A stretch of DNA of 36,412 bases from an uncultured Sphingomonas sp. (GTDB taxonomy: Bacteria; Pseudomonadota; Alphaproteobacteria; Sphingomonadales; Sphingomonadaceae), in assembly GCF_902806285.1 (NCBI RefSeq), contig NZ_CADCWA010000194.1, positions 1 to 36,412 of the forward strand, in the 5' to 3' direction. Every line of letters starts with the position of its first letter. Within the stretch, counting starts at the first letter, position 1. Below are positions 8,029 through 27,535 of this stretch, piece after piece. Both the position numbers and the translations under genes were made by a program. Below the pieces are notes generated by a model, which was given only the letters and a program-made list of their open reading frames with translations, was not told where the DNA came from and made no database searches.

Positions 8029-9702
8029 TCAGCGGTCTCCGACCGGGCTGGGCGTGGGCAGGTCGGCGCCGTCGGGGGCCGGGGTGCGGTAGGCGATCAC
8101 CGGCTTGCGCGCGGCCAGCGTCTCGTCCAGCCGCCGCCGTGGAGCGTGGACCGGGGCCGACTTGAGGTTCTCGTCCCCTGCCCGCGCCCGTTCGGCAATG
8201 GAGCGCAGCGCCGCGATGAACTGGTCGAGGGCGGCCTTGGACTCGGTTTCGGTCGGCTCCACCAGCATGGCGCCGTGCACCACCAGCGGGAAGTACATGG
8301 TCATCGGGTGGAAGCCCTCGTCGATCAGCGCCTTGGCGAGGTCGAGCGTCGTGATGCCGTTCGCAAAGCCGGCGTCGGAGAAGATCGCTTCGTGCATGCA
8401 CGGCCCCGAGCCGGCGAAGGGCGCGTCGAGCACGTCCTCCAAGCTACGGAGCAGGTAGTTGGCGTTGAGCACCGCATCCTCGGCGACCTGCGCAAGGCCG
8501 TCCGCCCCGTGGCTGAGGATATAGGCGAGCGCCCGGGTGAACATGCCCATCTGGCCGTGAAAGGCGGTCATCCGCCCGAAGCTCTGCATCACTCCGCCAA
8601 AATGCTCTTCGCTGAACTCGTCGGCCTGCTCCTCCTCGATGAGGTGCACGATCCCGTCCGCCGTCCGCGACACGTAGGGCAGCGGCATGAAGTGCGAGAT
8701 CTCCTTGGATAGCACCACCGGCCCCGACCCCGGGCCGCCGCCGCCATGCGGGGTGGAGAAGGTCTTGTGCAGGTTGATGTGCATCGCATCGATGCCGAGG
8801 TCGCCCGGCCGCACCTTGCCGACGATCGCGTTGAAGTTCGCGCCGTCGCAGTAGACGAAGCCGCCCGCGGCATGGACCGCGTCGCTGATCGCCTTCATGT
8901 CGGGCTCGAACAGCCCGCAGGTATTGGGATTGGTGATCATCACCGCCGCGACGTCCGGGCCGAGGCGCGCTTGCAAAGCCTCAAGGTCCACCCGGCCCGC
9001 GTCGTTCGTCGGGATGCTCTCGACCCGGTAGCCGCAGAAGGCGGCGGTCGCGGGGTTGGTCCCGTGCGCGCTCTCCGGCACCAGCACCACCTCGCGCGCG
9101 TCGCCCCGCGCCTCCAGCGCCGCGCGGATGCACAGCAGACCGCACAGCTCGCCGTGCGCGCCGGCCTTGGGGCTCATCGCCACCCCGTGCATGCCGGTGA
9201 GGTCGATCAGCCAGAACGCCAGCTCGTTGATGACCTCCAGCGCGCCCTGCACCGTCTCCCGCGGCTGCAGCGGATGGATGTCCGCGAAACCCGGCAGCCG
9301 CGCGACCTTCTCGTTCAGCCGCGGGTTGTGCTTCATGGTGCACGAGCCGAGCGGGAACAGGCCGAGGTCGATGGCGTAGTTCTGGCGCGACAGGCGGGTA
9401 TAGTGGCGGACGGTCTCGGGCTCGGTGAGGCCGGGGAGGCCGATCTCCGCGGTGCGGGCGAGGGTGCCGAGCTTGTGCCCCTGCGAAGGCAGGGGCCCAG
9501 TGCCTTCTTCAGCACGATCGAAAGAAGACTGGGCTCCTGCCTGCGCAGGAGCACTGAAGTCCACCCCCGTCGTGTCGCTGTCCCCGATCTCGAAGATCAG
9601 CGGCTCTTCCAGCATCAGCGCGCGGTTGCCGGTGGTGGTGCCGGTGTCGCCCGGACCCGCGACCGGGGTTGCCGGCTTCCAGCCGCTCTGGTTGATCGTC
9701 AC
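8029..9702 (-). CDS. gcvPB: Glycine dehydrogenase (decarboxylating) subunit 2, with in-frame palindromic insertion
   Basis: This is the PLP-binding half of the P-protein, which decarboxylates glycine and passes the aminomethyl group to lipoyl GcvH. The PLP lysine is K313 in [20 protein letters not shown]. Other family blocks are [20 protein letters not shown] and [20 protein letters not shown]. The start is GTG at 9702, overlapping the gcvPA stop (GTGA). At 557 residues it is longer than the usual ~520-530. The excess maps to about residues 50-76, where [18 protein letters not shown] and TGPLPSQGH are encoded entirely by an 80-bp double hairpin (9475-9554). The flanking VDF and [17 protein letters not shown] join smoothly, as expected of an insertion in a surface loop. 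The enzyme otherwise looks intact. Confidence 0.95.
9475..9554. repeat. Palindromic double-hairpin element inside gcvPB
   Basis: Two inverted units face each other. One has stem CCCCTGC/GCAGGGG (9478-9484 and 9489-9495, loop GAAG). The other has GCTCCTGC/GCAGGAGC (9533-9540 and 9545-9552, loop CTGC). The middle also pairs: CCCAGT...ACTGGG plus CTTCTT...AAGAAG. The outer ends are GTGC and GCAC. The element is an open frame throughout in the gcvPB frame and adds roughly 26 residues. Confidence 0.9.
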
Positions 9703-11057
9703 ACCACCACCTCCTTCAGCGCCGCTTCCAGCGCGTTCACGTCTTCGTCGGTGACCGTCTCGGTCACCGCCACCACCAGCCCGTTCTTCAGGCTGTCCAC
9801 CCCCGGGTAGAGCCGCCCAAGCGACACGCCGCCGAGCACCCCGCGCTCAACCATCGCATGCACCGCCGGCCGCGCTTCGACCGGCAGCTCCAGCGTGAAC
9901 TCGTTGAAGAAGCTGTCGTTGACCAGCCGCACGCCGGGGATCGCCGCCAGCCGCTCCGCCACCTCGACCGCCCGCGCATGGTTGAGCGCCGCGAGGCTCC
10001 GCAGCCCCTTTTCGCCCAGCAGGGTCATGTGGATGGAAAAGGCCAGCGCGCACAGGCCCGAGTTGGTGCAGATGTTGCTGGTCGCCTTTTCGCGGCGGAT
10101 GTGCTGCTCGCGGGTGCTGAGCGTCAGCACGAAGCCGCGCTTGCCCTCGGCGTCGACCGTCTCGCCGGCGATCCGCCCGGGCATCTGGCGAACGTGCTTC
10201 TCACGGCAGGCGAACAGGCCGACGTACGGCCCGCCGAACTGCAGCCCGACGCCGATCGACTGGCCCTCGCCCACCACGATGTCCGCCCCCATCTCGCCCG
10301 GCGCACGGATAGCCCCCAGCGCGACCGGCTCGGTCACCACCGCGATCAGTAGCGCACCCGCCGCATGCGCCGCGTCGGCGATCGGCTGCAGGTCCGTGAT
10401 CCGCCCGAGAATGTCGGGATACTGCACCACCACCGCGCTGGTCTCGCGGTCAATAGCGGCGATCAGCCGCTCGGCGTCGGTCTCCGCGGTCAGCTCCGGC
10501 AGCGCGGTGTCCAGCGTGTCGCCGGTGAACCGCGCCATGGTCTTGCACACGGAGACATAATGCGGGTGCAGGCCCGAGGAGATCACCGCCTTGGTCCGCC
10601 GGGTGATCCGCCGCGCCATTCCGATCGCTTCCCAGCAGGCGGTGGAGCCGTCGTACATCGACGCGTTCGCCACCTCGCAGCCGAGCAGCCGCGCGACCTG
10701 GCTCTGGAACTCGAACAGCACCTGCAGCGTGCCCTGCGCGATCTCCGGCTGGTAGGGCGTGTAGGCGGTCAGATACTCGCCGCGCTGGATCAGATGGTCG
10801 ACGCTGGCCGGGATATGGTGCTTGTACGCGCCGCAGCCGAGAAAGAAGGGCACCTCGCCGGCCGGCGTGTTCTTGCGCGACAGCGCGGTCATGTGCCGTT
10901 CGACCGCGAGCTCGGACGCGTGGCTCGGCAGGCCGGCGATCGGTCCACTCAGCCGTGCGCTTTCGGGCACGTCGCGGAACAGCTCGTCGATCGAGCCCGC
11001 GCCGACGGTGGCGAGCATCGCGCTGCGGTCGGCGTCGGACAAGGGCAGGTAACGCAT
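9699..11057 (-). CDS. gcvPA: Glycine dehydrogenase (decarboxylating) subunit 1
   Basis: This is the partner half of the two-subunit P-protein. The 452-residue product starts [20 protein letters not shown] and carries the family blocks [57 protein letters not shown] and [18 protein letters not shown]. The length is typical, with no insertion seen. The stop overlaps the GTG start of gcvPB, so subunits 1 and 2 are probably made in balance. One base separates its start from the preceding methyltransferase gene's stop. Splitting GcvP into two chains is normal in many bacteria and archaea, in contrast to the single chain of Escherichia coli. Confidence 0.96.
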
Positions 11058-11058
11058 C

Positions 11059-11832
11059 TTAGAAAGGCTTCCTCATGCTGAAGCGAAGTCGAATGTAGTC
11101 GGCGAACCAGCGTCCGCCAGGGTCGCGGAGCGTGGCTTCGAGCCGTTTTTCAATGGCTTGGGCGAGCGCGGGTCGCTCCGTCTCCGGAACCTTAGCTGCA
11201 TCCAGCCAGCCCGCGCGGAAGGTCAGCACCCATGCGGCAACCCCATGTTCCAGCAGCGTCGGACGCTCGATCAGCTCGGCTCGCACATCGGCGAAGCCTG
11301 CAGCGCGGTAAACGGCCGCGAACTCGGCCGGTGAAGGATACCATTGCGGATCCGCCGGCGGGACCGGGTAGCCTCGTTCGCTCAGCTCCGCGCGGATCGC
11401 GGCGCGCAGCTTGGCCAGATTGCCCTGGCCGCCCATCTCGCCCGCGAACCGGGCGCCCGGCTTCAACGCCCGGAACACCGCAGCCGCTGCTGCCTGTCGG
11501 TCGAGCATCCAATGCAACGCCGCATTGGAGAAGCCGGCGTCGAACTCCGCCGCGAACGACATGGCGGCCGCATCCATCAGCCGCGCGTCGAGCCCGCGGG
11601 CGCATGCCGCCTCGACCATGCTGGGACTGCTGTCGATCCCGACCACGGTCGCCCCGCGATCGACGATCTGCTGGGTGAGAGCGCCCTCGCCGCAGCCGAC
11701 GTCCAGGATGCGCTCGCCTTGGCGCGGATCGAGCAGGTCGAGCGCCGCGCCGCCGAGCCGCGACACGAAGCCGCCCACGCGCGCATACTCGGCCGCGTCC
11801 CAGCTGGAGGTCGAGGCGGCGGCTAGGGTCAC
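11059..11832 (-). CDS. SAM-dependent methyltransferase, trans-aconitate methyltransferase-like
   Basis: A class I methyltransferase of about 257 residues. The SAM site is [20 protein letters not shown], followed by [14 protein letters not shown] and [11 protein letters not shown], phrases shared with trans-aconitate 2-methyltransferase and related enzymes. I favour the GTG start at 11832, which overlaps the gcvH stop as GTGA; an ATG at 11847 would overlap gcvH by 19 bases. It lies inside the gcv operon between gcvH and gcvPA, an unusual place for such a gene. The substrate is unknown. A link to one-carbon metabolism is tempting because SAM and glycine-derived one-carbon units are connected, but this is inference. 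Confidence 0.85.
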
Positions 11833-12200
11833 AGCTTGCTCGACCACTCGCGGTAGCGGGCCTCGTCCATCAGCCCGTCGAGCTCCGACGGATCGGACAG
11901 GCGCAGCTTGAAGAACCAGCCCTCGCCTTCCGGGTCGGTGTTGATCAGCGCAGGTTCGTCGGCGATCGCTTGGTTGGCCTCGATCACCTCGCCGCTGACT
12001 GGCGTGTAGACGTCGCTCGCGGCCTTGACCGATTCCACCACGGCCGCCTCGTCGCCCTTGTTCAGCTGGCGGCCCGGCTCGGGTGCTTCGGCGAACACGA
12101 TATCGCCCAGCGCGTGCTGCGCATGTTCGGAGATGCCGACGGTGGCGGTGTCACCCTCGACGCGGATCCACTCATGTTCCTTGGTGAAGTACAGGCTCAT
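11829..12200 (-). CDS. gcvH: Glycine cleavage system H protein
   Basis: GcvH is the lipoyl carrier of the glycine cleavage complex. The 123-residue product starts [20 protein letters not shown], and the lipoylated lysine is K59 in [18 protein letters not shown]. Other conserved parts are [15 protein letters not shown] and [11 protein letters not shown]. The length is standard and no feature is missing. The start lies directly after the gcvT stop with no spacer, and its stop overlaps the next gene's GTG, so the operon is tightly coupled. Confidence 0.97.
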
Positions 12201-13316
12201 TCAGGCGGCTCCCTTGCGGTGGTAGCGGTGGGGGACGAACGGGGTCGGCGCGACGGTGGCGGGGAACAGCTTGCCGCGCTGCTCCAGGGTCAGCGGGGTT
12301 CCGGGCGCGGCGAGAGTAGTGGCGACATAGCCCATGCCGATCGGCCGGCCGAGCGAGGGCGCGAAGCCGCCGCTGGTCACCCGGCCAACCTCATTGCCTT
12401 CGCCGTCCAGGATGCGCGCGCCTTCGCGGACGGGCTGCCGGCCTTCGAGCGTGAAGCCGACACGCTTCTGCACCGGCCCGTTCTCCAGCTCGAGGAGGAT
12501 CCGCTCGGCCCCGGCGAAGCCGCCTTCGGCGCGGCGGCGCTTGGAGATGGCAAAGGTGACGTCCGCCATCACGGGCGTGGTGCGCTGGTCGAGGTCGTGG
12601 CCGTAGAGCGGCAGCCCCGCCTCCAGCCGCAGCGAGTCGCGCGCGCCGAGGCCGATGGGCTTGACGAGCTCGGACGACAGCAGCGCCTCCGCCACCGTCT
12701 CGGCCGCTGAGGCAGGGATCGAGATTTCGAACCCGTCCTCGCCGGTGTAGCCCGAGCGGCTGATCCAGGCGTCCGCGCCGGCGATCGTGAAGGCACCGCC
12801 CTGCATGAAGGTGAGGCCCGCCACGCCCGGTGCCAGCGGCTCCAGCGCCTCGACCGCTCGCGGACCCTGCAGGGCCAGCAGGGCTTGGCCGGCCAGATGT
12901 TCCGGCTGCAGTCCCGCGGCCTCGAACGCGGCGATGTCGCCGTGCTTGGTGGCACCGTTCACCACCAGGTAGAAATGATCGCCCCGGCGCGTCGCCATCA
13001 GGTCGTCGACGATCCCGCCCGCCTCGTTCAGCAGCAGCGAGTAGCGCAGCCGCCCGTCCTTGAGGCCGATGAGGTCGCCGGGCAGCAGCCGCTCCAAGGC
13101 GGCGTCCATGCCCTGCCCGCGAAAGACCAGCTGGCCCATATGGCTGACGTCGAACAGGCCGGCCGACTCGCGCGTCCACCCATGCTCGGCCATGATGCCT
13201 TCGTATTGGACGGGCATGTGGTAGCCGGCGAACGGCACCATCCGCCCGCCGCGGGCGCGGTGCCAGCTGTCGAGCGGTAGGGTCTGGATCAGGTCAAGCG
13301 TGTCGGCGTCGGCCAT
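12201..13316 (-). CDS. gcvT: Glycine cleavage system T protein (aminomethyltransferase)
   Basis: GcvT transfers the methylene group from aminomethyl-lipoyl GcvH to tetrahydrofolate and releases ammonia. The 371-residue product starts MADADTLDLIQTLPLDSWHR at the ATG 13316. A TTG codon directly upstream is a less likely start. Signature parts include the N-terminal MVPFAGYHMPVQYEGIMAEH, ESAGLFDVSHMGQ with the catalytic Asp, RSGYTGEDGFEIS, and DSLRLEAGLPLYGHDLD. A GGGAG ribosome site is at 13327-13331 on the minus strand. It is the first gene of the operon and lies directly below the tandem glycine riboswitch. Confidence 0.97.
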   Translation of the reverse strand: MADADTLDLIQTLPLDSWHRARGGRMVPFAGYHMPVQYEGIMAEHGWTRESAGLFDVSHMGQLVFRGQGMDAALERLLPGDLIGLKDGRLRYSLLLNEAGGIVDDLMATRRGDHFYLVVNGATKHGDIAAFEAAGLQPEHLAGQALLALQGPRAVEALEPLAPGVAGLTFMQGGAFTIAGADAWISRSGYTGEDGFEISIPASAAETVAEALLSSELVKPIGLGARDSLRLEAGLPLYGHDLDQRTTPVMADVTFAISKRRRAEGGFAGAERILLELENGPVQKRVGFTLEGRQPVREGARILDGEGNEVGRVTSGGFAPSLGRPIGMGYVATTLAAPGTPLTLEQRGKLFPATVAPTPFVPHRYHRKGAA

Positions 13317-13377
13317 CAATCAAGCACTCCCGGGCAAGTCCGTGCGAAGGCGTCATGCCCTTCGGATCACGAACCCC

Positions 13378-13573
13378 CGTCTGTCGCTTGCGGCCTGAGA
13401 GCTTTGCCCCTTCGGCGTTCCGCCATCGCGCTAGGCTCCGGCAGACACTTTCCAGACGTCCTTGTTCGCGCGCGGTCCTTGGTGCCTGAGAGATTCCGGG
13501 GGCGGTTGCTCCTTCGGCGTCCGCCATAGCTTCGGTGTTCACCCGGAGCGACGGCGGAACTCTCCCGCGCGCG
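13378..13573 (-). promoter_or_regulatory. Tandem glycine riboswitch controlling the gcv operon
   Basis: Read on the minus strand, aptamer 1 spans 13573-13468. It has P1 GCGCGC/GCGCGC, GGGAGAG, GCCGAAGGAGCAA and TCTCTCAGGCACCAAGGACC. Aptamer 2 spans 13458-13378, with P1 CGTCTG/CAGACG, GCCGAAGGGGCAAA and GCTCTCAGGCCGCAAGCGAC. These are the conserved cores of the glycine riboswitch, in the usual two-aptamer order with a short linker. The expression platform is the 60 bases before gcvT, where CGAAGG/CCTTCG can form a hairpin just upstream of the GGGAG ribosome site. Glycine would be expected to switch the operon on, as in other gcv riboswitches. A TTGACT -35-like site lies upstream (13648-13653), but no convincing -10 was seen. 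Confidence 0.95.
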
Positions 13574-13649
13574 CCTCCGTCAGCCAGGCCGGCGGAAGAC
13601 GGGCGAAGCCTTGGCGGCCACCCAGCCGCGAGTCAACGGTCTTTGAAAG

Positions 13650-13910
13650 TCAAGCGGCTCTCAGATGGTCGAGGTCGGCTGCAAGGCGGCGCAAGAGGGC
13701 GACCCCACCCGGGGTGTTCGCGATCAAACAGGGCTCATCCCACTCGAAGTAGAAGACGATCTGTTCGCCTGCCAAGCTGAAGGCGTCGTAGCAGGCGCCC
13801 TGCTCGGACCGAACCGCGCCAGCCCGCTTCAAACTCTCCAGGACGGCAGGAGTCTCCCTGGCCGTGAACTCGAGGCTTGCGCCGCCATTGTCGAGCGTGA
13901 GGATCTGCAT
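13650..13910 (-). CDS. Small acidic hypothetical protein (immunity-like by context)
   Basis: The 86-residue product starts MQILTLDNGGASLEFTARET and is unrecognised. I chose the start at 13910 because GGGAAGG precedes it by about seven bases. The upstream ATG at 13976 would overlap the previous gene. It is acidic (about 12 Asp/Glu against 7 Lys/Arg), with no signal peptide or membrane segment, and has an aromatic patch IVFYFEWDE near residue 52. It lies 41 bases after a small basic gene whose tail resembles a polymorphic-toxin C-terminus. The basic-then-acidic gene order is that of toxin and immunity pairs, which is the only hint at function. Confidence 0.6.
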   Translation of the reverse strand: MQILTLDNGGASLEFTARETPAVLESLKRAGAVRSEQGACYDAFSLAGEQIVFYFEWDEPCLIANTPGGVALLRRLAADLDHLRAA

Positions 13911-13951
13911 CCCACATCCTTCCCGAGGCGGAAGATATGTCCCCTTCCCGC

Positions 13952-14263
13952 TCAACTCAACTTGGAAGGACGGCAAGCGGCGCCGATCACCTCCGCCCAG
14001 CTGCCATACCGCCGTAGCAGCCCCTCTGCGTCGGGTCCTACGGCATTCCCGTATTTCGCTCGATTGCGAGCTTCAATGAGTACCAGGACCTCCGGGGAGT
14101 CGAAGCGCCTGAACTCGAGCTTGAGCATGTTGCGCCGCTCCACCAACTCGCGCGCGATCCGCTCGTCGCCCCAGCCCTCGCGGCGCAAGCTTGCCGCGAG
14201 TTCGCCAAGCAGCCGGACTTCTGCCTCATAGCGCCTTCGCCGCTCGGCCGGCGTGCCGGGCAT
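13952..14263 (-). CDS. Small basic protein with a polymorphic-toxin-tail-like sequence
   Basis: The 103-residue product starts MPGTPAERRRRYEAEVRLLG and is rich in Arg (18 Arg, 3 Lys). Residues about 55-100 (RNMLKLEFR, then EARNRAKYGNAVGPDAEGLL and SWAEVIGAACRP) remind me of a stretch seen at the C-termini of large filamentous-haemagglutinin/Rhs-type toxins (ARNxxKYGxxxGP...SWxxII). That comparison is from memory and is only suggestive. There is no signal peptide, so it would be a stand-alone cytoplasmic module. It begins one base after the stop of the lipoprotein gene (TGA-G-ATG), implying co-translation. Alternatively it is a simple conserved hypothetical with no toxin role. Confidence 0.6.
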   Translation of the reverse strand: MPGTPAERRRRYEAEVRLLGELAASLRREGWGDERIARELVERRNMLKLEFRRFDSPEVLVLIEARNRAKYGNAVGPDAEGLLRRYGSWAEVIGAACRPSKLS

Positions 14264-14264
14264 C

Positions 14265-14900
14265 TCACCGGGTAGCGTTGTAGCGCAGCTGCTCGCCGGT
14301 CAGCTGAAAGCCGACAAGGTGCTCGAACGTCGCGCGGGCGACCGCGTCGCGGATCTTGGGGTCGGATAGCGGATCCACCGCGGCGTTGGGGTCGCCGGCC
14401 TTGCGCTCGCGGGTGAGTTCGCGGCGCACCTCCTCGGGCAGGGCGGCAGCCGAGCGCGTCACGCGGACGGTCGACTGGCTGTTCGTCCGTGCCCGCACGC
14501 TCCCGGCCGGGAAGTTCAGCGCCACCGCGCCCACCTTTTTCGCCACCACCGCCGTCCCGCCCTGCACGGCGACCGAGTAGAAGGGCAGCACGACCTGGCG
14601 GGCTGAAGTCGGGTTGCGGCGGGTCGCGACCACGTCGAAGGTGGCGGTGGACACCAGGTTCTGCGTGTCCTCCGTGCAGGTGGAGCGAAGGTTGGTGATC
14701 GTCGCCACCACGTCGATCGCCGCCGCCGTGGTGTTGCCCGCAGGATCGAACAGGGTGATGTCCCCGGTGGCGCCCGGGATCGCGACCTGCGGGCAGCCCG
14801 TGCGCTTGGTGTAGACGCCGCCGGCGACCAGGTCCCCGCTCCGCGTGCAGGAAGTGGCCATCAGGGTGGCGATCGTCAGCGGAAGGAGGGCCAATTTCAC
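14265..14900 (-). CDS. Hypothetical lipoprotein
   Basis: The GTG start at 14900, with AAGGA about ten bases upstream, gives [18 protein letters not shown], a signal peptide with a lipobox (A-T-S-C, lipid Cys18). The longer frame from 14942 overlaps the divergent ispH leader and puts extra charged residues ahead of the signal. The mature part (about 190 residues) contains [18 protein letters not shown] and a beta-rich segment with [15 protein letters not shown], which could be an immunoglobulin-like fold. The C-terminal third is helical. No family is recognised, but its secretion to the envelope is well supported. Confidence 0.8.
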
Positions 14901-14991
14901 GAGGGATACGTCCTTACCGAGGAGGTGCGTGGTGGCGCGCATCCATAGGAAGCGCCTTTCAAGGCTGCAAGCAATCGCTTACATCGCGCTC

Positions 14992-15939: not shown

Positions 15940-15948
15940 CCGACAGCC

Positions 15949-16449
15949 ATGGAGGAGCTGCCGGAGGTCGAGCTGTTCACCGACGGCGCCTGCCGCGGCA
16001 ACCCCGGCCGCGGCGGCTGGGCGGCGCTGCTCCGCCTCCGCGGCAAGGAAAAGGAACTGTCGGGCGGGGAACCGCTGACCACCAACAACCGCATGGAACT
16101 GCTCGCCGCCATCCGCGGGCTGCAGGCATTGAAGCGGCCGTGCCGCGTCACCCTGCACACCGATAGCATGTATGTCCGCGACGGTATCACCAAGTGGGTC
16201 CACAACTGGCGCCGCAACGGCTGGCGGACCGCCGACAAGAAGCCGGTCAAGAATGCCGAGCTGTGGCAGGAGCTGTGCGAAGCCGCGGCGGCCCATCGGA
16301 TCGAATGGAAGTGGGTGCGCGGGCACGCCGGGCACCCGGAGAACGAACGGGTGGACAAGCTCGCTTGTGCGGCGGCGGACGGGATGCGTGCTGGCAGCTC
16401 CTCCCCCTTGGGGGAGATGTCGGCCGCGCAGCGGACGACGGAGGGGTGA
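15949..16449 (+). CDS. rnhA: Ribonuclease HI with repeat-encoded C-terminal tail
   Basis: RNase HI degrades RNA in RNA-DNA hybrids, removing primers and R-loops. The four catalytic acids are visible: D12 ([14 protein letters not shown]), E50 ([10 protein letters not shown]), D72 ([11 protein letters not shown]) and D136 (NERVDKLA). The enzyme core ends near ADGMRAG at about residue 149. The remaining 17 residues ([17 protein letters not shown]) are encoded by the left arm of the inverted repeat at 16396-16512, so the original stop codon seems to have been replaced. The start follows ispH by nine bases. The tail is unlikely to disturb the core fold. Confidence 0.94.
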
Positions 16450-16512
16450 CAGCAGGCCGGTTCACCGGACCCCTCTGTCGCTTCGCGACATCTCCCCCAA
16501 GAAGGAGGAGCT
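16396..16512. repeat. Large palindrome spanning the ends of rnhA and the FAD oxidoreductase
   Basis: Outer arms at 16396-16422 and 16486-16512 are complementary at 25 of 27 positions. Inner arms at 16436-16447 and 16469-16480 match at 11 of 12. A small CCGG-TTCA-CCGG hairpin sits at the centre. The 117-bp element covers the 3' ends of two convergent genes. It could form a strong hairpin in either transcript and so act as a two-way terminator, though there is no T-run. Copies elsewhere in the genome are likely but cannot be checked here. Confidence 0.85.
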
Positions 16513-17568
16513 GAACCGCCCCGGATCGTAAGGCGCCGGATCGACCGGCATCTCCCCTTCCCCAAGGATCAGCGCCGCGCACAGCGCAGCCGCCGCCGGC
16601 GCCGTCTGGATGCCGAAGCCGCCCTGCCCTGCGCACCAGAAGAATTCGGGCTCATCCGACCCGAAGCCGAACACCGGCAGCCGGTCCGGCGCGAAGCTCC
16701 TCAGCCCCGCCCAGCTCCGCTCCACCCGCTCGACCGGCCAGTCGACGACTTGGCTGAACCGGTCGATCGCCACCGCCACGTCCAGCTCCTCGGGCGCGGC
16801 GTCGCACGGGTCCGTCGCAACCTCGTCATGCGGGCTGAGCCAGATCGACCGCTCGCCCTCCCCCTTGAAGTAGAAGCTCCCGTCCGCCGCGACCACCAGC
16901 GGCAGGCGCTTGCAACCGCTTCGACCGAGCCGCAGTTGCACCATGGTCCGCCGCTTGGGCGCGATGCCGAGCGGCCGCACGCCGCAGCGCTCCGCCACCG
17001 TGTCGGCCCAGGCGCCCGCGGCGTTGACGATCACCTCCGCCGCAACCTCCTCGCCACCGTCGAACCGCGCTCGCCAGCGCTCCCCCCGCCGCTCGGCGGA
17101 GGCCAGCCGCATGCCGGTCCGGACAGCGCCGCCGTTCGCCCGCAGCTCGGCCAGATAGTCGTTGTGCAGCCGGCTGACGTCGATGTCGGCCAAGGCGGGC
17201 TCGGCCAGTCCCCGCACCCACTCCGGCCTCAACCCCGGCAGCAGCCGCTCCAGCGCGGGGCGATTGAGCGGCTCCACCGCGCAGCCGGGAACGATCTCGA
17301 TTCCCTCGCCCGCCCTGGCGATGTGGATCGCACCGCGCGGGCTGAGGTAACCCCCTGCTTCCAGCACCGGCCGGCTGGCGCGGGTCAGCGGCGCGACCAG
17401 CGGCCCGCCATAGCCTTCGTGCCAGAAGGCCGCGGAGCGGCCGGTCGCATGGCGGCCGGGCCAATCCTCCGCCTCCGTCACCAGCACCCGGCGGCGCGGC
17501 GCGAGGGCGGCCCCAAGGCTGGCACCGGCGATCCCGGCGCCGATGATCAGGATATCGACGCTGTCCAC
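16462..17568 (-). CDS. FAD-dependent oxidoreductase of the DAO (D-amino-acid oxidase-like) family
   Basis: The 368-residue product starts MDSVDILIIGAGIAGASLGA, with the FAD-binding GxGxxG motif at residues 10-15. Family blocks are GRHATGRSAAFWHEGYGG, VIVNAAGAWADTVAERCG, SWAGLRSFAPDRLPVFGF and FFWCAGQGGFGIQTAPAAAA. Members oxidise amines, amino acids or hydroxy acids, but the substrate is not evident. The last 16 residues (SSSFLGEMSRSDRGVR) come from the right arm of the palindrome at 16396-16512 and match the tail of the convergent RNase HI. Otherwise it is complete, and it is divergent from cpaA with about 50 bases between. Confidence 0.9.
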   Translation of the reverse strand: MDSVDILIIGAGIAGASLGAALAPRRRVLVTEAEDWPGRHATGRSAAFWHEGYGGPLVAPLTRASRPVLEAGGYLSPRGAIHIARAGEGIEIVPGCAVEPLNRPALERLLPGLRPEWVRGLAEPALADIDVSRLHNDYLAELRANGGAVRTGMRLASAERRGERWRARFDGGEEVAAEVIVNAAGAWADTVAERCGVRPLGIAPKRRTMVQLRLGRSGCKRLPLVVAADGSFYFKGEGERSIWLSPHDEVATDPCDAAPEELDVAVAIDRFSQVVDWPVERVERSWAGLRSFAPDRLPVFGFGSDEPEFFWCAGQGGFGIQTAPAAAALCAALILGEGEMPVDPAPYDPGRFSSSFLGEMSRSDRGVR

Positions 17569-17621
17569 TCCGCTTCGCCGGTTACGGTTTGGAAAGACGG
17601 CTCGTCTAGGCCTGCGTCATC

Positions 17622-18104: not shown

Positions 18105-18150
18105 TGTCTGAGACGATCAAGGGAACCCACCTGGGGGAGGCGGATACGCC

Positions 18151-19197: not shown

Positions 19198-19198
19198 G

Positions 19199-20671: not shown

Positions 20672-20697
20672 CCCGCACCTCGACAGGAGATCGCACC

Positions 20698-21318
20698 ATG
20701 CGCAAGACCTTGGCCCTCCTGCTCCTCGCCTCGGCGGCCGGAGCCTGCGGTCACACCCCTAACGACCAGCCCGCCCGGGGCGTGTCCGCCGTGAACGTGC
20801 CGGTGGTCGCCCGGACCGACTACGCCTTCGACGCGGCTGCTCCCGGCGGCACCCTTGCGCCCGGCGAGGCCGCCCGCCTCGATGCCTGGTTCCGCGGCCT
20901 GGAGCTTGGCTACGGGGACGCCATCTTCGTCGACGGTCCTTATGCGGATACCGTGCGCAGCGAAGTCGCGCAGGTCGCCGGCCAGTACGGCATGATGGTC
21001 TCGCGCGGCGCGCCTGTCACCATTGGCGCGATGCCGGACGGCAGCGTCCGGGTGGTCGTCAGCCGCAACCGGGCGAGTGTCCCTGGCTGTCCCAACTGGA
21101 GCGAGCCCGCCTCGCCCAACTACCAGAACCGCATGATCTCCAATTTCGGCTGCGCGGTGAACAGTAATCTCGCTGCCATGGTCGCCAACCCGAGCGACCT
21201 GGTCCACGGGCAGGAGAGCGGCGGCGTGGTTGATCCGGCCACATCGGCCAAGGCCATCAACGCCTACCGGAGCAAGCCGGCCACAAGCGGCGGCGTGGCT
21301 GCCGTCAGCACCAAGTAG
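20698..21318 (+). CDS. cpaD: Pilus assembly lipoprotein CpaD
   Basis: CpaD is an outer-membrane lipoprotein of the Tad system. From the ATG at 20698 (AGGAG about ten bases upstream), the 206-residue product has a lipoprotein signal with lipid Cys17 (ASAAGACGHT). The CpaD domain is recognised by LDAWFRGLELGYGDAIFV, VVSRNRASVPGCPNWSEPAS and the C-terminal NYQNRMISNFGCAVNSNLAA and MVANPSDLVHG. It sits between cpaC (26 bases) and cpaE (13 bases). Confidence 0.93.
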   Translation: MRKTLALLLLASAAGACGHTPNDQPARGVSAVNVPVVARTDYAFDAAAPGGTLAPGEAARLDAWFRGLELGYGDAIFVDGPYADTVRSEVAQVAGQYGMMVSRGAPVTIGAMPDGSVRVVVSRNRASVPGCPNWSEPASPNYQNRMISNFGCAVNSNLAAMVANPSDLVHGQESGGVVDPATSAKAINAYRSKPATSGGVAAVSTK

Positions 21319-21331
21319 CGGAGCCTCAACC

Positions 21332-22594
21332 ATGAATGCGCCCTTTCAAGCACGCGCGGGCCTCCGCGATCCGTTCCAGGCGTTCGTCTGCGACGAAGCG
21401 ACCGCCGACCTGCTCCGGCCGCTGGCGGTTGAGCACGGCTGGAACCCGGAGAAGGTCAACAAGGGCGGGCTGCGCAACGCGGTGCAGACGCTGTCGGTCG
21501 CCGCTTCGCCCAACATCCTGTTCGTTGACCTGTCCGAGTCCGCCGACCCGTTGAACGACATCAACGCGCTCGCCGAAGTCTGCGAGCCCGGCACCATCGT
21601 GATCGCGGCCGGCCAGGTGAACGACGTCCGCCTCTACCGCGACCTCGTCGCCAGCGGCATCCACGACTATCTGCTCAAGCCGTTCAGCGTCGACCAGATC
21701 CGCGACACGTTCGCGCATGCCCAGTCGGTCCTGTCCGGCCCGCGCGGCGAGGTGCAGGCCGACAAGCCGCACGTGATGACCGCGGTGGTCGGGGTTCGCG
21801 GCGGCGTGGGCGCCTCCACGGTCGCCACCTCGCTCGCCTGGATGCTGGGCGACAAGGCGCATCGCTCCACCGCGCTGCTGGACCTCGACATCCACTTCGG
21901 CACCGGCGCACTCGCGCTCGACCTGGAGCCGGGCCGCGGGCTGACCGACGCGATGGAGAACCCCAGCCGGATCGACGGTCTGTTCATCGAACGGGCCATG
22001 GTCCGCGCCAACGAGCGGCTGTCCGTGCTGTCCGCCGAGGCGCCGATCAACACGCCGTTGATGACCGACGGCGCCGCCTTCTTCCAGCTGCAGGAGGAGA
22101 TGCGGAACGCGTTCGAGTCGACGGTGCTCGACCTGCCCCGCCACATGCTGATCCAGTTCCCGCACATGGTTCACGATGCCCATGTCGCCGCCGTGGTGGC
22201 GGAGCTGACGCTAGCTTCGACCCGCGACACCATCCGCATCCTCGCCTGGCTTAAGGCCAACGCGCCGCAGACCAAGGTGCTGGTGATCGCCAACCGCGTG
22301 CCCACCGGCGGCGCGCTGGAGATCAGCCGCAAGGACTTCGAGCAATCGATCGAGCGCCCGGTCGACATCGTGATCGGCGAGGACGGCAAGCTGGCGGCCC
22401 AGGCGGCCAAGCTCGGCAAGCCGGTGGCGGAGATCGCGGGCGGCAAGGCGGCGCAGCCCTATCTGCAGCTGTGCAACATGGTCCTGAGCCACGCCACGGA
22501 GGAGGGCGCGGCCAAGCCCGGCTCCCCGGCCGGTGCCAAGTCGCTCGTCGGCAACCTCAAGGCGATGCTGAGCAAGCCCAAGGTCGCGGCCTGA
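21332..22594 (+). CDS. cpaE: Tad pilus localisation ATPase CpaE/TadZ
   Basis: CpaE directs the Tad machine to a cell pole. The 420-residue product starts MNAPFQARAGLRDPFQAFVC. Residues about 15-130 form a receiver-like domain (PNILFVDLSESADPLNDINA; GIHDYLLKPFSVDQIRDTF). A ParA/MinD-type ATPase follows, with VVGVRGGVGASTVATSLAWM near residue 155 and LLDLDIHFGTGALALDLEPG. The Walker A has the degenerate RGGVGAST often seen in CpaE proteins. A Gly/Ala/Lys-rich tail ends the protein. In most cpa loci cpaF comes next; here it does not. Confidence 0.94.
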   Translation: MNAPFQARAGLRDPFQAFVCDEATADLLRPLAVEHGWNPEKVNKGGLRNAVQTLSVAASPNILFVDLSESADPLNDINALAEVCEPGTIVIAAGQVNDVRLYRDLVASGIHDYLLKPFSVDQIRDTFAHAQSVLSGPRGEVQADKPHVMTAVVGVRGGVGASTVATSLAWMLGDKAHRSTALLDLDIHFGTGALALDLEPGRGLTDAMENPSRIDGLFIERAMVRANERLSVLSAEAPINTPLMTDGAAFFQLQEEMRNAFESTVLDLPRHMLIQFPHMVHDAHVAAVVAELTLASTRDTIRILAWLKANAPQTKVLVIANRVPTGGALEISRKDFEQSIERPVDIVIGEDGKLAAQAAKLGKPVAEIAGGKAAQPYLQLCNMVLSHATEEGAAKPGSPAGAKSLVGNLKAMLSKPKVAA

Positions 22595-22604
22595 AGCGGG
22601 GACC

Positions 22605-22623
22605 GGAGGCGGCAACCGCCTCC
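22605..22623. terminator. Intercistronic hairpin between cpaE and tadB
   Basis: GGAGGCGG (22605-22612) and CCGCCTCC (22616-22623) pair perfectly around a CAA loop, flanked by GGGG and CCC that extend the stem with a bulge. It sits in the 67-base gap where cpaF stands in other loci. It may attenuate tadB-tadC expression or protect the upstream mRNA. There is no T-run. Confidence 0.45.
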
Positions 22624-22661
22624 CCCAACCGCTAGGGCGCGCAAGAAGGATTGAACGAGCC

Positions 22662-23639
22662 ATGTCCATGACGGTGATGATGCTGATGGCCGGGGCCGCC
22701 GCTCTGATGCTGTTCATGCTCGCGGCGGCGTTCAGCGGCCCCTCGCCGGCCAAGGCCTACAAGCGCCGCATGGAGCTGATCAAGGAACGGCATGGGGAGA
22801 ATGTGCTGGCGGCCAACGCCAATGCTCAAATCCGCAAGCTGTTCGCGCAACGGGAAAGCCGGGTCGACAGCTGGGCGTCCACCCTGATGCCCAAGCCCGC
22901 GCTGCTGCGCCGCCGGCTCGAGCAGACCGGCAAGCCGTGGACCCTCGCGCAATATGGGCTGGCAACGATCGGCATCGTCACGGTGGTTGCGGGCCTGCTG
23001 CTCCTGCAGGGCATGCCGGCTATTCTCTCCCTGATGCTGGCCCTGTTCGTCGGTGTGGGCTTCCCGCACCTGGCGATCGGCTTCCTGATCAAGCGCCGGG
23101 TCGCGGCGTTCAACGCCAACTTCCCCGACGCTATCGAGCTGATGGTCCGCGGCCTGCGCTCCGGCCTGCCGATCACCGAAACGCTGGGGATCGTCGCGAC
23201 CGAGCTGTCCGGCCCGGTCGGGGTCGAGTTCCGTGCCGTCGCCGACCGGATGAAGATCGGCCGGACCATGGACGCCGCGCTGCAGGAAACCGCCGAGCGG
23301 CTCGGCACGCCCGAGTTTCAGTTCTTCGTCATCACCCTCAATATCCAGCGCGAAACGGGCGGCAACCTCGCTGAAACCCTGTCCAACCTGGCCGACGTGC
23401 TGCGCAAGCGCGCGCAGATGAAGCTCAAGATCAAGGCCATGAGCTCCGAGTCCAAGGCCTCGGCCTACATCGTCGGCGCGCTGCCCTTCATCGTCTTCAC
23501 CATGGTCTACATGATGAACCCCGAATATATGGCGGGCTTCTTCACCGACGACCGGCTGATCGTCGCGGGGCTCGGCGGGCTGGTGTGGATGGGCATCGGC
23601 GTGTTCATCATGGCCAAGATGGTCAACTTCGAGATCTAA
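22662..23639 (+). CDS. tadB: Tad platform protein TadB (CpaG)
   Basis: TadB is one of two inner-membrane platform proteins of the T2SF family that convert ATPase motion into pilus extension. The 325-residue product has an N-terminal helix (MSMTVMMLMAGAAALMLFML), two further helices around residues 95-145, the T2SF domain (NFPDAIELMVRGLRSGLPIT, ETLGIVATELSGPVGVEFRA, GTPEFQFFVITLNIQRETGG) and C-terminal helices. An AAGAAGGA ribosome site lies upstream; either ATG at 22662 or 22668 could start. The gap to cpaE holds a strong hairpin. TadB needs the CpaF/TadA ATPase, which is not in this cluster. Confidence 0.95.
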   Translation: MSMTVMMLMAGAAALMLFMLAAAFSGPSPAKAYKRRMELIKERHGENVLAANANAQIRKLFAQRESRVDSWASTLMPKPALLRRRLEQTGKPWTLAQYGLATIGIVTVVAGLLLLQGMPAILSLMLALFVGVGFPHLAIGFLIKRRVAAFNANFPDAIELMVRGLRSGLPITETLGIVATELSGPVGVEFRAVADRMKIGRTMDAALQETAERLGTPEFQFFVITLNIQRETGGNLAETLSNLADVLRKRAQMKLKIKAMSSESKASAYIVGALPFIVFTMVYMMNPEYMAGFFTDDRLIVAGLGGLVWMGIGVFIMAKMVNFEI

Positions 23640-23654
23640 GGGGCACTTGTCGTC

Positions 23655-24656
23655 ATGCAGCCTGCTTCCGGCCCGACCCTGCTCGGCTTCGACGTCATCT
23701 GGGTGGCGACCCTGCTCTCGGCCGTGGCCACCCTCGCGGTGCTGGTTGCCCTTTATGCGGCAACCACCGTGCGCGACCCCATGGCGCGCCGGGTCAAGGC
23801 GCTGAACGAACGGCGCGAGCAGCTGAAGGCGGGCATCGTCGCCTCCACCAACAAGCGCAAGAAGCTGACCAACAAGAATGCGGCGGCCGACAAGGTCCGC
23901 GGCATCCTGTCCAGCTTCAGGATGCTGCAGGACGATCAGCTCAAGGCGACGCAGCTGAAGCTGATGCAGGCGGGCATCCGGGCCAAGGACCTGGCCTTCT
24001 TCATCATTCTCGCACGCTTTCTGCTGCCGCTGGTGCTGGGCGGGACGGCCATTGTGCTGATCTACGTGCTCAACAGCTTTCCGGATTGGGGCGCGTTCAA
24101 GAAATATGCGGTAACCGCGGGCGCGCTGATCGGCAGCTACAAGGCGCCCGACCTGTGGCTCAAGAACAAGGTCAACAAGCGCAGCGATGCGGTCCGCAAG
24201 GGCCTGCCCGACGCGCTCGACCTGCTGGTCATCTGCGCCGAAGCGGGCCTCACCGTCGACGCCGCCTTCGGCCGCGTCGCCAAGGAGTTGGGCAAGGCCT
24301 ATCCGGAGCTCGGCGACGAGTTCGGGCTGACCGCGATCGAGCTGGGCTTCCTGGCCGAGCGGCGTCAGGCGTTCGAGAACCTCGCGGCCCGCGTCGACCT
24401 GGAGGCGGTGCGCGGAGTGGTCACCACCATGATCCAGACGGAGAAGTACGGCACTCCGCTCGCCTCCGCGCTGCGCGTGCTGTCGGCCGAGTTCCGCAAC
24501 GAGCGCATGATGCGCGCCGAGGAAAAGGCCGCACGCCTGCCCGCGATCATGACCGTTCCGCTGATCCTGTTCATCCTGCCGACGCTGTTCGTAGTGATCC
24601 TCGGCCCCGCGGCCTGTTCGATCAGCGACAGCATGATCGGCGGCGGCGGCAAGTGA
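23655..24656 (+). CDS. tadC: Tad platform protein TadC (CpaH)
   Basis: TadC is the second T2SF platform protein. The 333-residue product begins MQPASGPTLLGFDVIWVATL and has an N-terminal helix, a basic cytoplasmic linker (NERREQLKAGIVASTNKRKK), two central helices, the T2SF domain (LPDALDLLVICAEAGLTVDA, LGDEFGLTAIELGFLAERRQ, MIQTEKYGTPLASALRVLSA) and a final helix. It starts 15 bases after tadB, preceded by AAGGGG. The stop lies at the foot of a perfect 18-bp palindrome. No tadD, tadE, tadF or tadG follows. Confidence 0.95.
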   Translation: MQPASGPTLLGFDVIWVATLLSAVATLAVLVALYAATTVRDPMARRVKALNERREQLKAGIVASTNKRKKLTNKNAAADKVRGILSSFRMLQDDQLKATQLKLMQAGIRAKDLAFFIILARFLLPLVLGGTAIVLIYVLNSFPDWGAFKKYAVTAGALIGSYKAPDLWLKNKVNKRSDAVRKGLPDALDLLVICAEAGLTVDAAFGRVAKELGKAYPELGDEFGLTAIELGFLAERRQAFENLAARVDLEAVRGVVTTMIQTEKYGTPLASALRVLSAEFRNERMMRAEEKAARLPAIMTVPLILFILPTLFVVILGPAACSISDSMIGGGGK

Positions 24657-24695
24657 CGAGCCTAGGCTCGTCACCCCGGACCTGATCCGGGGTCC
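24655..24695. repeat. Two adjacent palindromes after tadC
   Basis: GACGAGCCTAGGCTCGTC at 24655-24672 is a perfect palindrome that includes the last two bases of the tadC stop. A second hairpin (CCCCGGA, CCTGA loop, TCCGGGG) follows at 24675-24693, then TCCAG. The CCCCGG...CCGGGGTCCAG form matches half of the element inside glyS (26344-26367). They may also end the tad transcript. Confidence 0.75.
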
Positions 24696-24805
24696 AGCTT
24701 CAAAGACGCCGCCTCCGCCCTGCTGCTCGCAAGGCAGGCGGGGGAACTTACGCGCGGTCTCCTCGCTTTGCGTCGTTACGGACGCGACAAGGGGAACACA
24801 CGGCC

Positions 24806-25216
24806 ATGACGACCTTCACTCCCGACCAGTGGATCATTCTCGGGCTGGTCTTTGTGCTCGGCACGCTCATCGGCATGTGGCTGACCAGCGGCGGCCGCCG
24901 CAAGTGGAAGACCCGCTACAACGAGGAGGTCGAACGCCGCCGCACGCTGGAGCGCGAGGCCAAAGACCGCGAAACGCACTGGACGAGCCGCGAAAAGGAA
25001 TGGCGCGAGCAGGACAGCCTGCGCACTGCCGCGGGGCGGACCTCCGCTGGCGCGCCGCTCGCCGACCACCGCGACCCGCGTTATGTCGAAACGCGCGATG
25101 TCGATGCCTCGCACCGATCCGACCTGCGCGACCGCGACCACCCCCGCCACGACCTCGACCGCGATGGCGTTCCCGACCGTGACGATCGCCGCCCGCTGAA
25201 CGGAGGCCGTCGGTAA
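24806..25216 (+). CDS. Hypothetical single-pass membrane protein with a charged tail
   Basis: The 136-residue product starts MTTFTPDQWIILGLVFVLGT. One hydrophobic segment (about residues 9-26) is followed by a strongly charged cytoplasmic region: a helical KTRYNEEVERRRTLEREAKD, likely coiled coil, then an Asp/Arg-rich end (HRSDLRDRDHPRHDLDRDGV). GGGG lies about ten bases before the ATG. No known family was recognised. It is flanked by repeat elements on both sides. It could be transcribed from the tad operon, but the palindromes in between make an independent start more likely. Confidence 0.65.
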   Translation: MTTFTPDQWIILGLVFVLGTLIGMWLTSGGRRKWKTRYNEEVERRRTLEREAKDRETHWTSREKEWREQDSLRTAAGRTSAGAPLADHRDPRYVETRDVDASHRSDLRDRDHPRHDLDRDGVPDRDDRRPLNGGRR

Positions 25217-25223
25217 GAAGCTA

Positions 25224-25313
25224 GTGCTCCCGCGAAGGCGGGAGCCCAGTACTGGGCCCCTGCCTTGGGTCCCATCGAAGTATCACTTCGATGGGTGCCC
25301 TTCGCAGGGGCAC
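25224..25313. repeat. Composite palindromic element with a nested hairpin
   Basis: Unit 1 (25224-25250) has stem CTCCCGC/GCGGGAG around GAAG, then CCCAGT. Unit 2 is inverted and starts ACTGGGCCCC at 25251. Its stem is split by an extra segment containing an 11-bp perfect hairpin (25271-25281 and 25285-25295, loop ATC), flanked on both sides by CCTT. The outer ends GTGC and GCAC match the ends of the element in gcvPB. It ends six bases before the glyS stop codon. Confidence 0.85.
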
Positions 25314-25318
25314 GCAGC

Positions 25319-27535
25319 TCAGCCCTCGATCTTGGAGAAATCCGCCACCCGGTGCACCGCATCGCGGAAGCGCGCGAGGAGGTTCAGGCGCCGCGCGCGG
25401 ACCTGCGGCGCGGGGTCGTTGACCGTCACCTTGTCGAAGAAGGCGTCGATCGGCTCGCGCAGCGAAGCCAGTGCGGACATGGCCGCGCGGAAGTCCTCGG
25501 CCGCGATCGCCGCCTCGGCCCGCGGCTCCGCCTCGTCCAGCGCGGCGACCAGCGCCTGTTCCTCGGCCGGCGCATCGACCGGCGCAGCGGAGCCCTGAGC
25601 CATCTCCCGCACCGCTTCCGCGATCGCCGGCTCCTCGACCAGCACCAGCGGATCCTCCTCCCCCGTCTGCGGCATCGCCTGCTCGCCCGGCCCTGCCATC
25701 ACGCGGGGCAGCGACCAGTTCTCCTTCTTGAGAATGTTCGCCGCCCGCTTGTAGCCGGCGAGGAGGTTGGCGCCGTCCTCCGTCTCGACGAACGACTGCA
25801 GCGCCTCGGTTCGAGCAAGCAAGCGCACCAGATCATCCTCCCCGCCAAGCGCGAACACTGCGTCGATGAGGTCGTGGCGGACGCCGGCCTCACGCTGCTG
25901 AACCTTGAGGCGATCGGCGACGAAGGCAGTGAGTTCAGGGTAACTGCTTGCGGCACCCGTCTCGCTGAACAACCGCTGGATCGGAGCGCGCAGATCATTG
26001 TTCACGATCAAACTGATGAAGCCCAGTCCAGCTCGCCGAAGGGCGAAAGGATCCTTCGACCCGGTCGGCGGCATGCCAGCTGCGAAGAACCTAGCAAGCG
26101 TATCCAGCTTATCCGCCAGCGCCACGGCCACCGTCACCGGCGCGGTCGGCACCTCATCCCCCTGCCCGACCGGCTTGTAATGGTCGCGCACCGCATCCGC
26201 GACGGCCTTCGGCTCGCCCTGGCGCTCGGCGAGGTAGCCACCGATCAGGCCCTGCAACTCGGGGAACTCGCCGACCATGCCGGTGACGAGGTCGGCCTTG
26301 GCGAGGCGGGCGGCGCGCTCGGCCTGGTCGGCCAGCTCCGAGTTCCCCGGCGAACGCCGGGGTCCAGATTCCTTGAGCCGCTGGACCCCGGCGTTCGCCG
26401 GGGAGCTGCCAACAACACCCTGTTCCACCAGCCACCGCGCCAGCTTCGCCACCCGCTCGACCTTGTCGGCGACGGTGCCGAGCTTCTCGTGAAACAGGAC
26501 TCCGCCCAGCTTCGCCGCCTGCTCCTCCAGCGGGACCTTGAGGTCCTGTTCCCAGAAGAAGCGCGCATCCGCCAAGCGTGCCGCCAGCACCCGCTGGTTG
26601 CCCTCCACGATCGCCGCGCCGCCGTCGCTGGCGGCGATGTTGGCGGTGCAGATGAAGGCGTTGGCGAGCGCGCCTTCGTCGCCGCGAAGCACGAAATACT
26701 TCTGGTTGACCCGCGCGGTCAGCTGGATGACCTCGGGCGGGACATCGAGATAGTCGGCGTCGAACCGCCCGAGCAGCGGCTGGGGCCATTCGGTCAGCCC
26801 GGCGTTCTCCGCGACCAGTCCCTCGTCCTCGACCAGCTCCAGCCCGGCCTCCGCCGCCAGTGCGCGGGCACCGTCGCGGATGATCGCCGCCCGCTCGTCC
26901 TGGTCGACGATCACGTGGCAGGCGCGGAGCTTCTCGGCGTAGTCGCTGGAGCCGCCCAGGGTGATCGGGCCCGGGTGGTGGAAGCGATGCCCGACGGTGG
27001 TCGCGCCGCTCGCGATGCCGTCCACTTCTAGCCGAACGATCTCGTCGCCGAGCAGCGCGACGACCCCGTGCAGCGGCCGCACCCAGCGCAGGCTCGCGGT
27101 GCTCGCCGAGGCCTCGCCCCAGCGCATCGACTTGGGCCAGGGAAAGCCGCGGATAATGCGCTCGATGGCTGGCCCAAGCACCGCGGAAGTCGCCTGGCCC
27201 GGCCGGTCGATGGCCGCGAAAAGGACGCCGCCGCGGTCGACCAGCTGACTGAAGCTCAGGCTGTTTTTCCGCAGGAAGCCGTCAATAGCTTGCGACGGTG
27301 CGGACGCGCGCGGACCCTTGATCTCCTCGCTCACCGCAGCGGTCGCCACCGGCAGCCCGCGCGCGATCAGTGCCAGCCGCCGCGGCGTCGCAAAGGTCTC
27401 GATCGCCTCCGCCTGCAGGCCGGCCTTGTCCAGCTCCTCCGCGAACATCCGCGCCAGGCTGTTCCGCGCGCCGGCCTGCATCCGCGCCGGGATCTCTTCG
27501 GACAGGAGTTCAAGCAGGAAGTCGGCCGTGCTCAC
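25319..27535 (-). CDS. glyS: Glycyl-tRNA synthetase beta subunit, with in-frame palindromic insertion
   Basis: GlyS pairs with GlyQ to charge tRNA(Gly); the beta chain carries tRNA-binding and HD-like regions. The GTG at 27535 overlaps the glyQ stop (GTGA) and gives a proper start [20 protein letters not shown]. Family blocks are [52 protein letters not shown] and [20 protein letters not shown]. At 738 residues it is longer than the usual ~690. Part of the excess is residues about 378-398 ([26 protein letters not shown]), encoded by the palindrome at 26344-26404. The insertion lies just before [20 protein letters not shown], in the loop that precedes the conserved helix. The frame is open and the enzyme is presumably active, as it is essential. 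Confidence 0.95.
26344..26404. repeat. Perfect 24-bp inverted repeat inside glyS
   Basis: Arms at 26344-26367 and 26381-26404 are exact reverse complements around a 13-base centre. Each arm also folds on itself: CCCCGGC/GCCGGGG with loop GAAC on the left (26345-26362) and GTTC on the right (26386-26403), followed or preceded by the TCCAG/CTGGA joint. Perfect arms imply recent insertion or ongoing gene conversion. Confidence 0.93.

Follow-up and report, generated by a model that had tools for sequence, protein, structure and literature searches.

How did two conserved genes on one Sphingomonas contig come to carry a short palindromic repeat that is read in the same frame and yields similar peptides? 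The stretch analysed here, referred to as the window, comprises 36,412 nucleotides (nt) of an uncultured Sphingomonas sp. (contig NZ_CADCWA010000194.1), and the two repeats lie within gcvPB and glyS. An initial annotation made from the letters alone had placed them there and proposed a peptide-coding repeat family, selected for a soluble, stop-free frame. Sequence and alignment confirm the position and the common frame of both copies: each is a dimer that forms one open frame with its host gene, both are on the minus strand, and both use the same arm frames. The observation is sound, whereas its earlier reading was overstated and is only partly supported. With a probability of roughly two in three, the repeats are non-coding repetitive extragenic palindromes (REPs), whose persistence inside genes is confined to places that tolerate added length and to the most disorder-like of the open frames.

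For each gene 30 loci were aligned, the window's own included; three of the glyS loci belong to other families of the order. Judged by eye, the glyS site is empty in 26 of the 30 loci, own locus counted, and 28 of the 30 gcvPB loci are without a REP-like segment, although some of them show other length changes. Most relatives' loci being devoid of the segment, both dimers are insertions. The glyS insert corresponds to a gap in the sequence alignment to 7yse chain C, and the gcvPB insert precedes the portion alignable to 1wyt chain B. As single-stranded DNA, the gcvPB and glyS copies have folding energies of -30.8 and -36.2 kcal/mol, respectively (z = -7.1 and -10.0 against 200 shuffles).

The unit of the family is a hairpin with an 8-bp stem and a 4-nt loop, as given by the position profile of 308 arms, and a CCA tail; a dimer consists of two such hairpins with their tails pointing inward. 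A frame-neutral arm pattern (CCNGCGNANGCNGGNNNCCA), which fixes 13 positions and requires the CCA tail, gave 74+76 matches in the own genome and none with the pattern reversed; the window copies carry the tail that this search also demanded. At least one match is present in 33 of 37 sampled genus genomes. As the reversed control reached up to one match per genome and orientation, genomes with one to three matches are near chance. Within this first set of 308 unique arms, the dimers are arranged tail-inward in 82 cases, tail-outward in none and head-to-tail in one; 136 arms bear a CGTC tag and most others end in GT. The tags of the window copies (TTGT, CAGT, GAGT and CAGC) end in NNGT or NNGC, which places these copies outside the CGTC REPs; on sequence grounds they are classified as GT-tagged relatives, a sister group of the CGTC-1 REPs.

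Subsequent counts are based on an enlarged set of 742 unique arms at 481 sites, drawn from stretches around matches in thirteen genus genomes and from search loci, including gene-targeted glyS and gcvPB loci, and taking in at least 116 stretches from a scan with a narrower dimer pattern. At the variable stem pair, 720 of the 742 arms retain Watson-Crick pairing, and all four pair types are common. In the frame favoured inside genes, the variable base falls on the third position of the Pro codon and of the second Ala codon, so that the PAxAG peptide is alike across stem subfamilies without any convergence. The subfamilies that had been thought to converge on one peptide hence differ mostly synonymously, at wobble bases of Pro and Ala.

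To be called genic, a site needed flanks (up to 60 codons either side) that scored as coding, in a single open frame running through the element; the element itself remained unscored. After removal of sites less than 200 nt from a locus end, 468 of the 481 were tested. At a threshold of T=8 the genic sites number 32 of 318 in the genus and 4 of 150 elsewhere (36 of 468 in total), whereas of 1500 random positions per group 65% and 62%, respectively, are genic. Without the window and the gene-targeted loci the counts are 27/310 and 4/150 (31/460), and for dimers alone under the same restriction 20/243 and 4/142. These shares are rough, because several genic singles look by eye like chance matches and the call also misses true coding positions. 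The family is mainly non-coding and extragenic, with copies that sometimes survive inside genes, and intergenic copies do outnumber genic ones, a point that the initial annotation had put forward for checking.

Each dimer can be read in nine pairs of arm frames, of which pair (0,1) yields PAxAGxQ...GPxPSPG. Among 240 non-genic GT dimers, the fraction in which a given pair is open lies at 61-75% for all nine; pair (0,1) contributes 8.4% of the open frames, a value taken as the null. Genic GT dimers at T>10, however, use pair (0,1) in 14 of 17 cases, with two in (2,0) and one in (2,2) (p 5e-13 versus 0.084). At T>6 the proportion is 16/24, and 16/20 when doubtful rows are dropped. As the two window copies had prompted the question of frame, the count was repeated without them (12/15), and also without the window and all gene-targeted loci (11/14, p 4e-10). 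Collapsing the set without doubtful rows by hand to gene sites leaves 10 of 13 in pair (0,1), with p 0.0012 for the first-arm frame. The frame bias of the GT group is real.

The CGTC group uses other frames. Its seven genic dimers at T>10 fall into pairs (2,2), (0,2) and (2,0) four, two and one times, and never into (0,1); at T>6 (n=10) one further (2,0), one (1,2) and one (1,0) are added. Here pair (0,1) is open in 15 of 76 frames and second-arm frame 1 in 9-20%, the latter being mostly closed because the CGTC tag supplies a TGA. Stop avoidance does shape frame use in the CGTC group. As the cause of the GT bias it was ruled out, since all nine pairs are open to a similar degree; selection for a stop-free frame, as formerly suggested, thus explains the GT copies less well than the low share of order-promoting residues described below.

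A relaxed scan yielded 411 tail-inward pairs, 30 of them genic, which are distributed over (0,1), (2,0), (2,2) and (0,2) as 17, 5, 5 and 3. Among the 30, several represent one gene in different genomes and some stem from gene-targeted loci; one or two pairs carrying 4 mismatches could be fortuitous. The controls comprised 50 tail-outward pairs with two genic cases, and two pairs of the reversed pattern with none. These two genic controls might point to false coding calls or pseudogenes as the source of the genic class, as might five of the 34 genic dimers found at T=6 (L209, L157, L135, L074 and L357), which lack a family match and were removed before the rank test and the model fits described below. 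Yet such an artefact is hardly credible as a general explanation, given the strong frame skew of the tail-inward pairs, the exclusion of the element from the coding score and the location of the other 29 dimers in recognised conserved genes (five glyS and gcvPB cases by alignment). The hosts are glyS (at two places), gcvPB, uup, sucB, other E2 acyltransferases, a RarA-like ATPase, biotin carboxylase, ligA, murD, a class I tRNA synthetase, mutL, truB, sufC, the polymerase III alpha subunit and a peptidyl-prolyl isomerase. Together with the empty sites of relatives, they bear out the notion of a repeat family inserted in-frame in unrelated conserved genes.

Besides their frame, the supported GT genic dimers share a length class: 18 of 20 have a length of 2 mod 3, versus 62 of the 240 non-genic ones. 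Both traits could result from the mechanics of insertion, if a fixed target (for instance between G and C) and a fixed net length were used; an insert would then stay in frame only at a length of 2 mod 3, with its codon phase given by the target. In line with this, GT inserts keep one frame pair within one gene site (uup, ligA, gcvPB), the ligA inserts of genomes G000 and G031 nearly share both boundaries, and a weak pyrimidine preference exists immediately outside the elements. However, the length class leaves three pairs with similar open stocks (93, 94 and 90), which are nevertheless used 16:0:2, and the supported CGTC dimers occupy all length classes, 4:2:3 over 0, 1 and 2 mod 3. Moreover, about 15 host nucleotides are missing beside the ligA insert of G000 and G031 compared with empty sites, so that entry or a later change was not clean. 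A clear target-site duplication was not found, and as the origin of the frame rule it was rejected. With fixed ends and lengths of 1 to 11, the GT group gave only a weak signal at length 5 (z 2.7), where 1 of 240 matched over the full length, and matches at length 3 were in deficit (z -4.2); the CGTC group gave no signal (largest z 1.1). Shifted ends produced z values of 3 to 3.6 and of -3.7 to -4.7 among many tests, which are read as putative palindrome symmetry. Taken as a whole, an origin of the frame rule in insertion mechanics appears rather unlikely.

The same length counts bear on the initial idea of a selfish element that is itself selected to be read as a soluble peptide. The strong frame bias inside genes would agree with it, as would GT tags free of the TGA that shuts this frame in most CGTC elements. 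However, no such tuning is seen outside genes, where GT copies fall into the required length class in less than one third of cases; genic sites, moreover, are far rarer than among random positions. The term peptide-coding family is therefore not upheld, and selection on the element for being read is improbable.

Which property distinguishes the frames in use was addressed by a model that treats every open frame among the non-genic dimers as a possible choice and compares seven peptide properties for 20 GT and 9 CGTC dimers; both here and in a rank test the disorder and hydropathy scales were entered by hand. The best single predictor was the share of order-promoting residues (CFILMVWY), with a gain of 22.95 log-likelihood units for both groups together. 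Its slope has the same sign in each group, -4.32 for GT (p 7e-11) and -2.89 for CGTC (p 0.03). A model combining the share of Pro, Ala, Gly, Ser, Thr and Gln with charge was rejected for its poor prediction of the GT group. A low order-promoting share thus fits frame use in the GT group and, more weakly, in the CGTC group, which is suggestive and not proof.

The places of insertion recur among relatives. REP-derived inserts are found in 6 of 30 uup loci (four from the relaxed scan and two, in G007 and G000, judged by eye) and in 3 of 30 ligA loci. A tree of 40 genomes was computed from the proteins of glyS, gcvPB, uup and ligA after removal of columns filled in less than 75% of rows, unfetched genes counting as missing data. 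It requires no fewer than 4 changes in glyS, 2 in gcvPB, 6 in uup and 3 in ligA, at least 15 at four places; the changes may include losses, and the glyS count takes in an insert of G004 that resembles another repeat family. Related bacteria seem to have gained REP inserts repeatedly at the same places. Alternatively, the genic copies could be a few old insertions inherited by many genomes, an idea to which the recurrence of the same genes (uup, ligA, E2 genes) and an ELADQ-like tail following three of the four glyS inserts, but missing from empty sites, lend some weight. Yet presence is scattered on the tree, the sister genome G008 has no insert in any of the four genes, and the glyS inserts appear to come from three repeat families, which renders shared ancestry even less probable than an element selected for its peptide. 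The suggestion that such repeats are a possible source of new protein segments stands insofar as recurrent gain is indicated.

At the same places of glyS, gcvPB and uup, some relatives carry segments resembling other repeat families, for example PHPNPLPAGER and SPGGGVSAERRRG (L004, L035, L048, L049, L488 and L511), types that we take to be repeats.

The favoured explanation, survival of non-coding REPs in a tolerated place and frame, can be put in the following steps. The GT-tagged sister group of the CGTC-1 REPs would spread through some activity without creating a clear target-site duplication; the bulk of its copies lie between genes. A copy arriving in a gene would pass three filters. The site would have to accept extra length, as may be the case in loops or inter-domain linkers; recurrence at four places is indicated, and the tolerance itself is presumed. 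The net length change would have to preserve the frame without encountering a stop. Finally, the frame would have to give a peptide with few order-promoting residues, a step suggested by the statistical fit. In the GPxPSPG frame the CGTC tag puts a TGA just where the reading leaves the second arm, whereas GT tags keep this frame open. In genes the GT group is accordingly found mostly as PAxAGxQ...GPxPSPG, while RHPRxSGDP...LDPRxRGND or VTPAKAG...DPRLRGND are the usual forms of the CGTC group. That survival picks both place and frame is the most likely reading. A bolder version, in which the tags decide which selfish DNA becomes protein and the GT group, its least ordered frame pair being open for want of the TGA, is a recurrent donor of ready-made disordered segments to essential enzymes, in a frame selected for disorder, is conceivable but doubtful.

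Several results weigh against survival in the most disorder-like frame. In the rank test over the nine frame pairs no property correlated significantly with use in either family. Composition alone does not seem to account for the full strength of the GT bias: with 169 and 201 open frames, pairs (0,0) and (1,1) are well stocked but occur in 0 of 20 cases; at T>6 each of the two had a single case, which was among the doubtful rows removed. The ligA inserts have another frame pair in all three carrier genomes, two of them with nearly equal boundaries. The CGTC fit alone is weak and based on 9 dimers, the p-values assume independent sites, and the best of seven properties was chosen afterwards. 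Furthermore, the length skew of the GT group also suits a mechanical rule, and the word tolerated rests on alignment gaps and linker genes.

Positions of the repeat copies and their host genes in the window
Feature	Position	Strand	Remark
REP dimer, GT tag, inside gcvPB	9475..9554	-	80 nt; encoded peptide takes in the preceding codon base
First arm of gcvPB dimer (coding sense), CCA tail inward	9530..9549	-	arm-pattern match
Second arm of gcvPB dimer, facing the first	9480..9499	+	arm-pattern match
gcvPB (glycine dehydrogenase subunit 2), host gene	8029..9702	-	open reading frame; alignment of relatives' loci
REP dimer, GT/GC tag, inside glyS	26342..26406	-	65 nt
First arm of glyS dimer (coding sense)	26382..26401	-	arm-pattern match
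Second arm of glyS dimer	26347..26366	+	arm-pattern match
glyS (glycine--tRNA ligase beta subunit), host gene	25319..27571	-	open reading frame; alignment of relatives' loci
Third GT-tagged dimer, between convergent genes	25224..25313	+	first arm by pattern; extent and split are our reading

Another palindrome (25267-25300), with TT on either side, interrupts the second arm of the third copy. Two further inverted-repeat structures lie elsewhere in the window. At 1456-1785, 330 nt are enclosed between 32-nt inverted repeats that are 81% complementary, with CTAG at both ends; pieces of this segment recur in the own genome (10 matches including itself, three of them together in contig C64), and the preceding gene is presumably fliP. 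At 16395-16513, a gene which we take to be rnhA ends in a 28-nt inverted repeat (93% complementary) that seems to supply the last codons of this gene and to extend to the facing one.

With respect to mobility, a search for Y1_Tnp (PF01797), the sole transposase family searched, found nothing in the own genome (87% complete) and two genes in the 37 genus genomes (L543 and L544, in G005 and G034). Both of these genomes are rich in REP arms (31 and 80 matches). The GTAG tag is missing from the 25 commonest tags listed in the first set and from the window copies. Plasmid records used as annotated controls matched in one and two records, none of them with an annotated feature at the matching position.

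E. litoralis and S. alaskensis are sphingomonads. In both, REPs inside tRNA synthetase and truB genes have been described, the text naming no tag for them (Di Nocera et al. 2013, PMC3733652). The same article reports the largest number of intragenic CGTC repeats from R. conorii, equates the Rickettsia palindromic elements RPE-4 and RPE-6 with CGTC-4 and CGTC-1, notes different REPs near the same recB site in two Xanthomonas species and suggests that an insert placed in a flexible linker or loop may be neutral. As both points stand there, REPs in genes and the idea of tolerated loops are already known; likewise, the proposed sphingomonad counterpart of the Rickettsia elements holds as a likeness and is in substance already in print. 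Frame choice and tree-based recurrence were not found in the consulted parts of PMC3733652, whose figures or Additional file 3 may hold a GT variant or a remark on frame, and no report of a frame rule or of tree-based recurrence for such repeats was found in the parts consulted of the open-licence literature (including PMC10969869 and PMC12306157). With respect to the literature searched, the frame bias of the GT group, the common peptide rule and the tree-based recurrence were not found in print. The GT and CGTC groups are related and have a common core but differ in the frames they use, and a single peptide property fits the choice in each. The recurring places in enzymes constitute a natural experiment, which makes the question of how random DNA becomes tolerated protein testable. 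For annotators, PAxAGxQ...GPxPSPG segments in such proteins are probably repeat-derived.

Among known systems, as far as the consulted parts of the cited articles describe them, the CGTC-1 REPs share the 8-bp stem, the 4-nt loop, the predominance of facing dimers, the mostly intergenic location and the occurrence inside genes; they are further described with a CCA tail and without an associated transposase, but bear the tag CGTC, TGTC or CCTC instead of NNGT or NNGC (PMC3733652). GTAG REPs with RAYT transposases are likewise small palindromes in facing dimers; they differ in their tag, and the own genome has no Y1_Tnp match at the completeness given above (PMC3733652). Enterobacterial RU and Neisseria Correia elements also provide open frames fused in-frame to genes, but are longer and resemble miniature inverted-repeat transposable elements, several with TA ends or target duplications (PMC2759123, PMC2229807). 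RPE-4 and RPE-6, which PMC3733652 assigns to the same superfamily as the CGTC REPs, lie inside protein genes of another genus and are likened here by description only. RPE-1 is a palindrome found in-frame in conserved genes including truB, as is the case here (Ogata 2000, via PMC2229807 and PMC3733652), although Rickettsia palindromic elements measure 105-146 bp (PMC2229807) compared with 65 and 80 nt for the window copies. In-frame insertion in unrelated conserved genes, the trait of the Rickettsia palindromic elements, is found in the window family as well.

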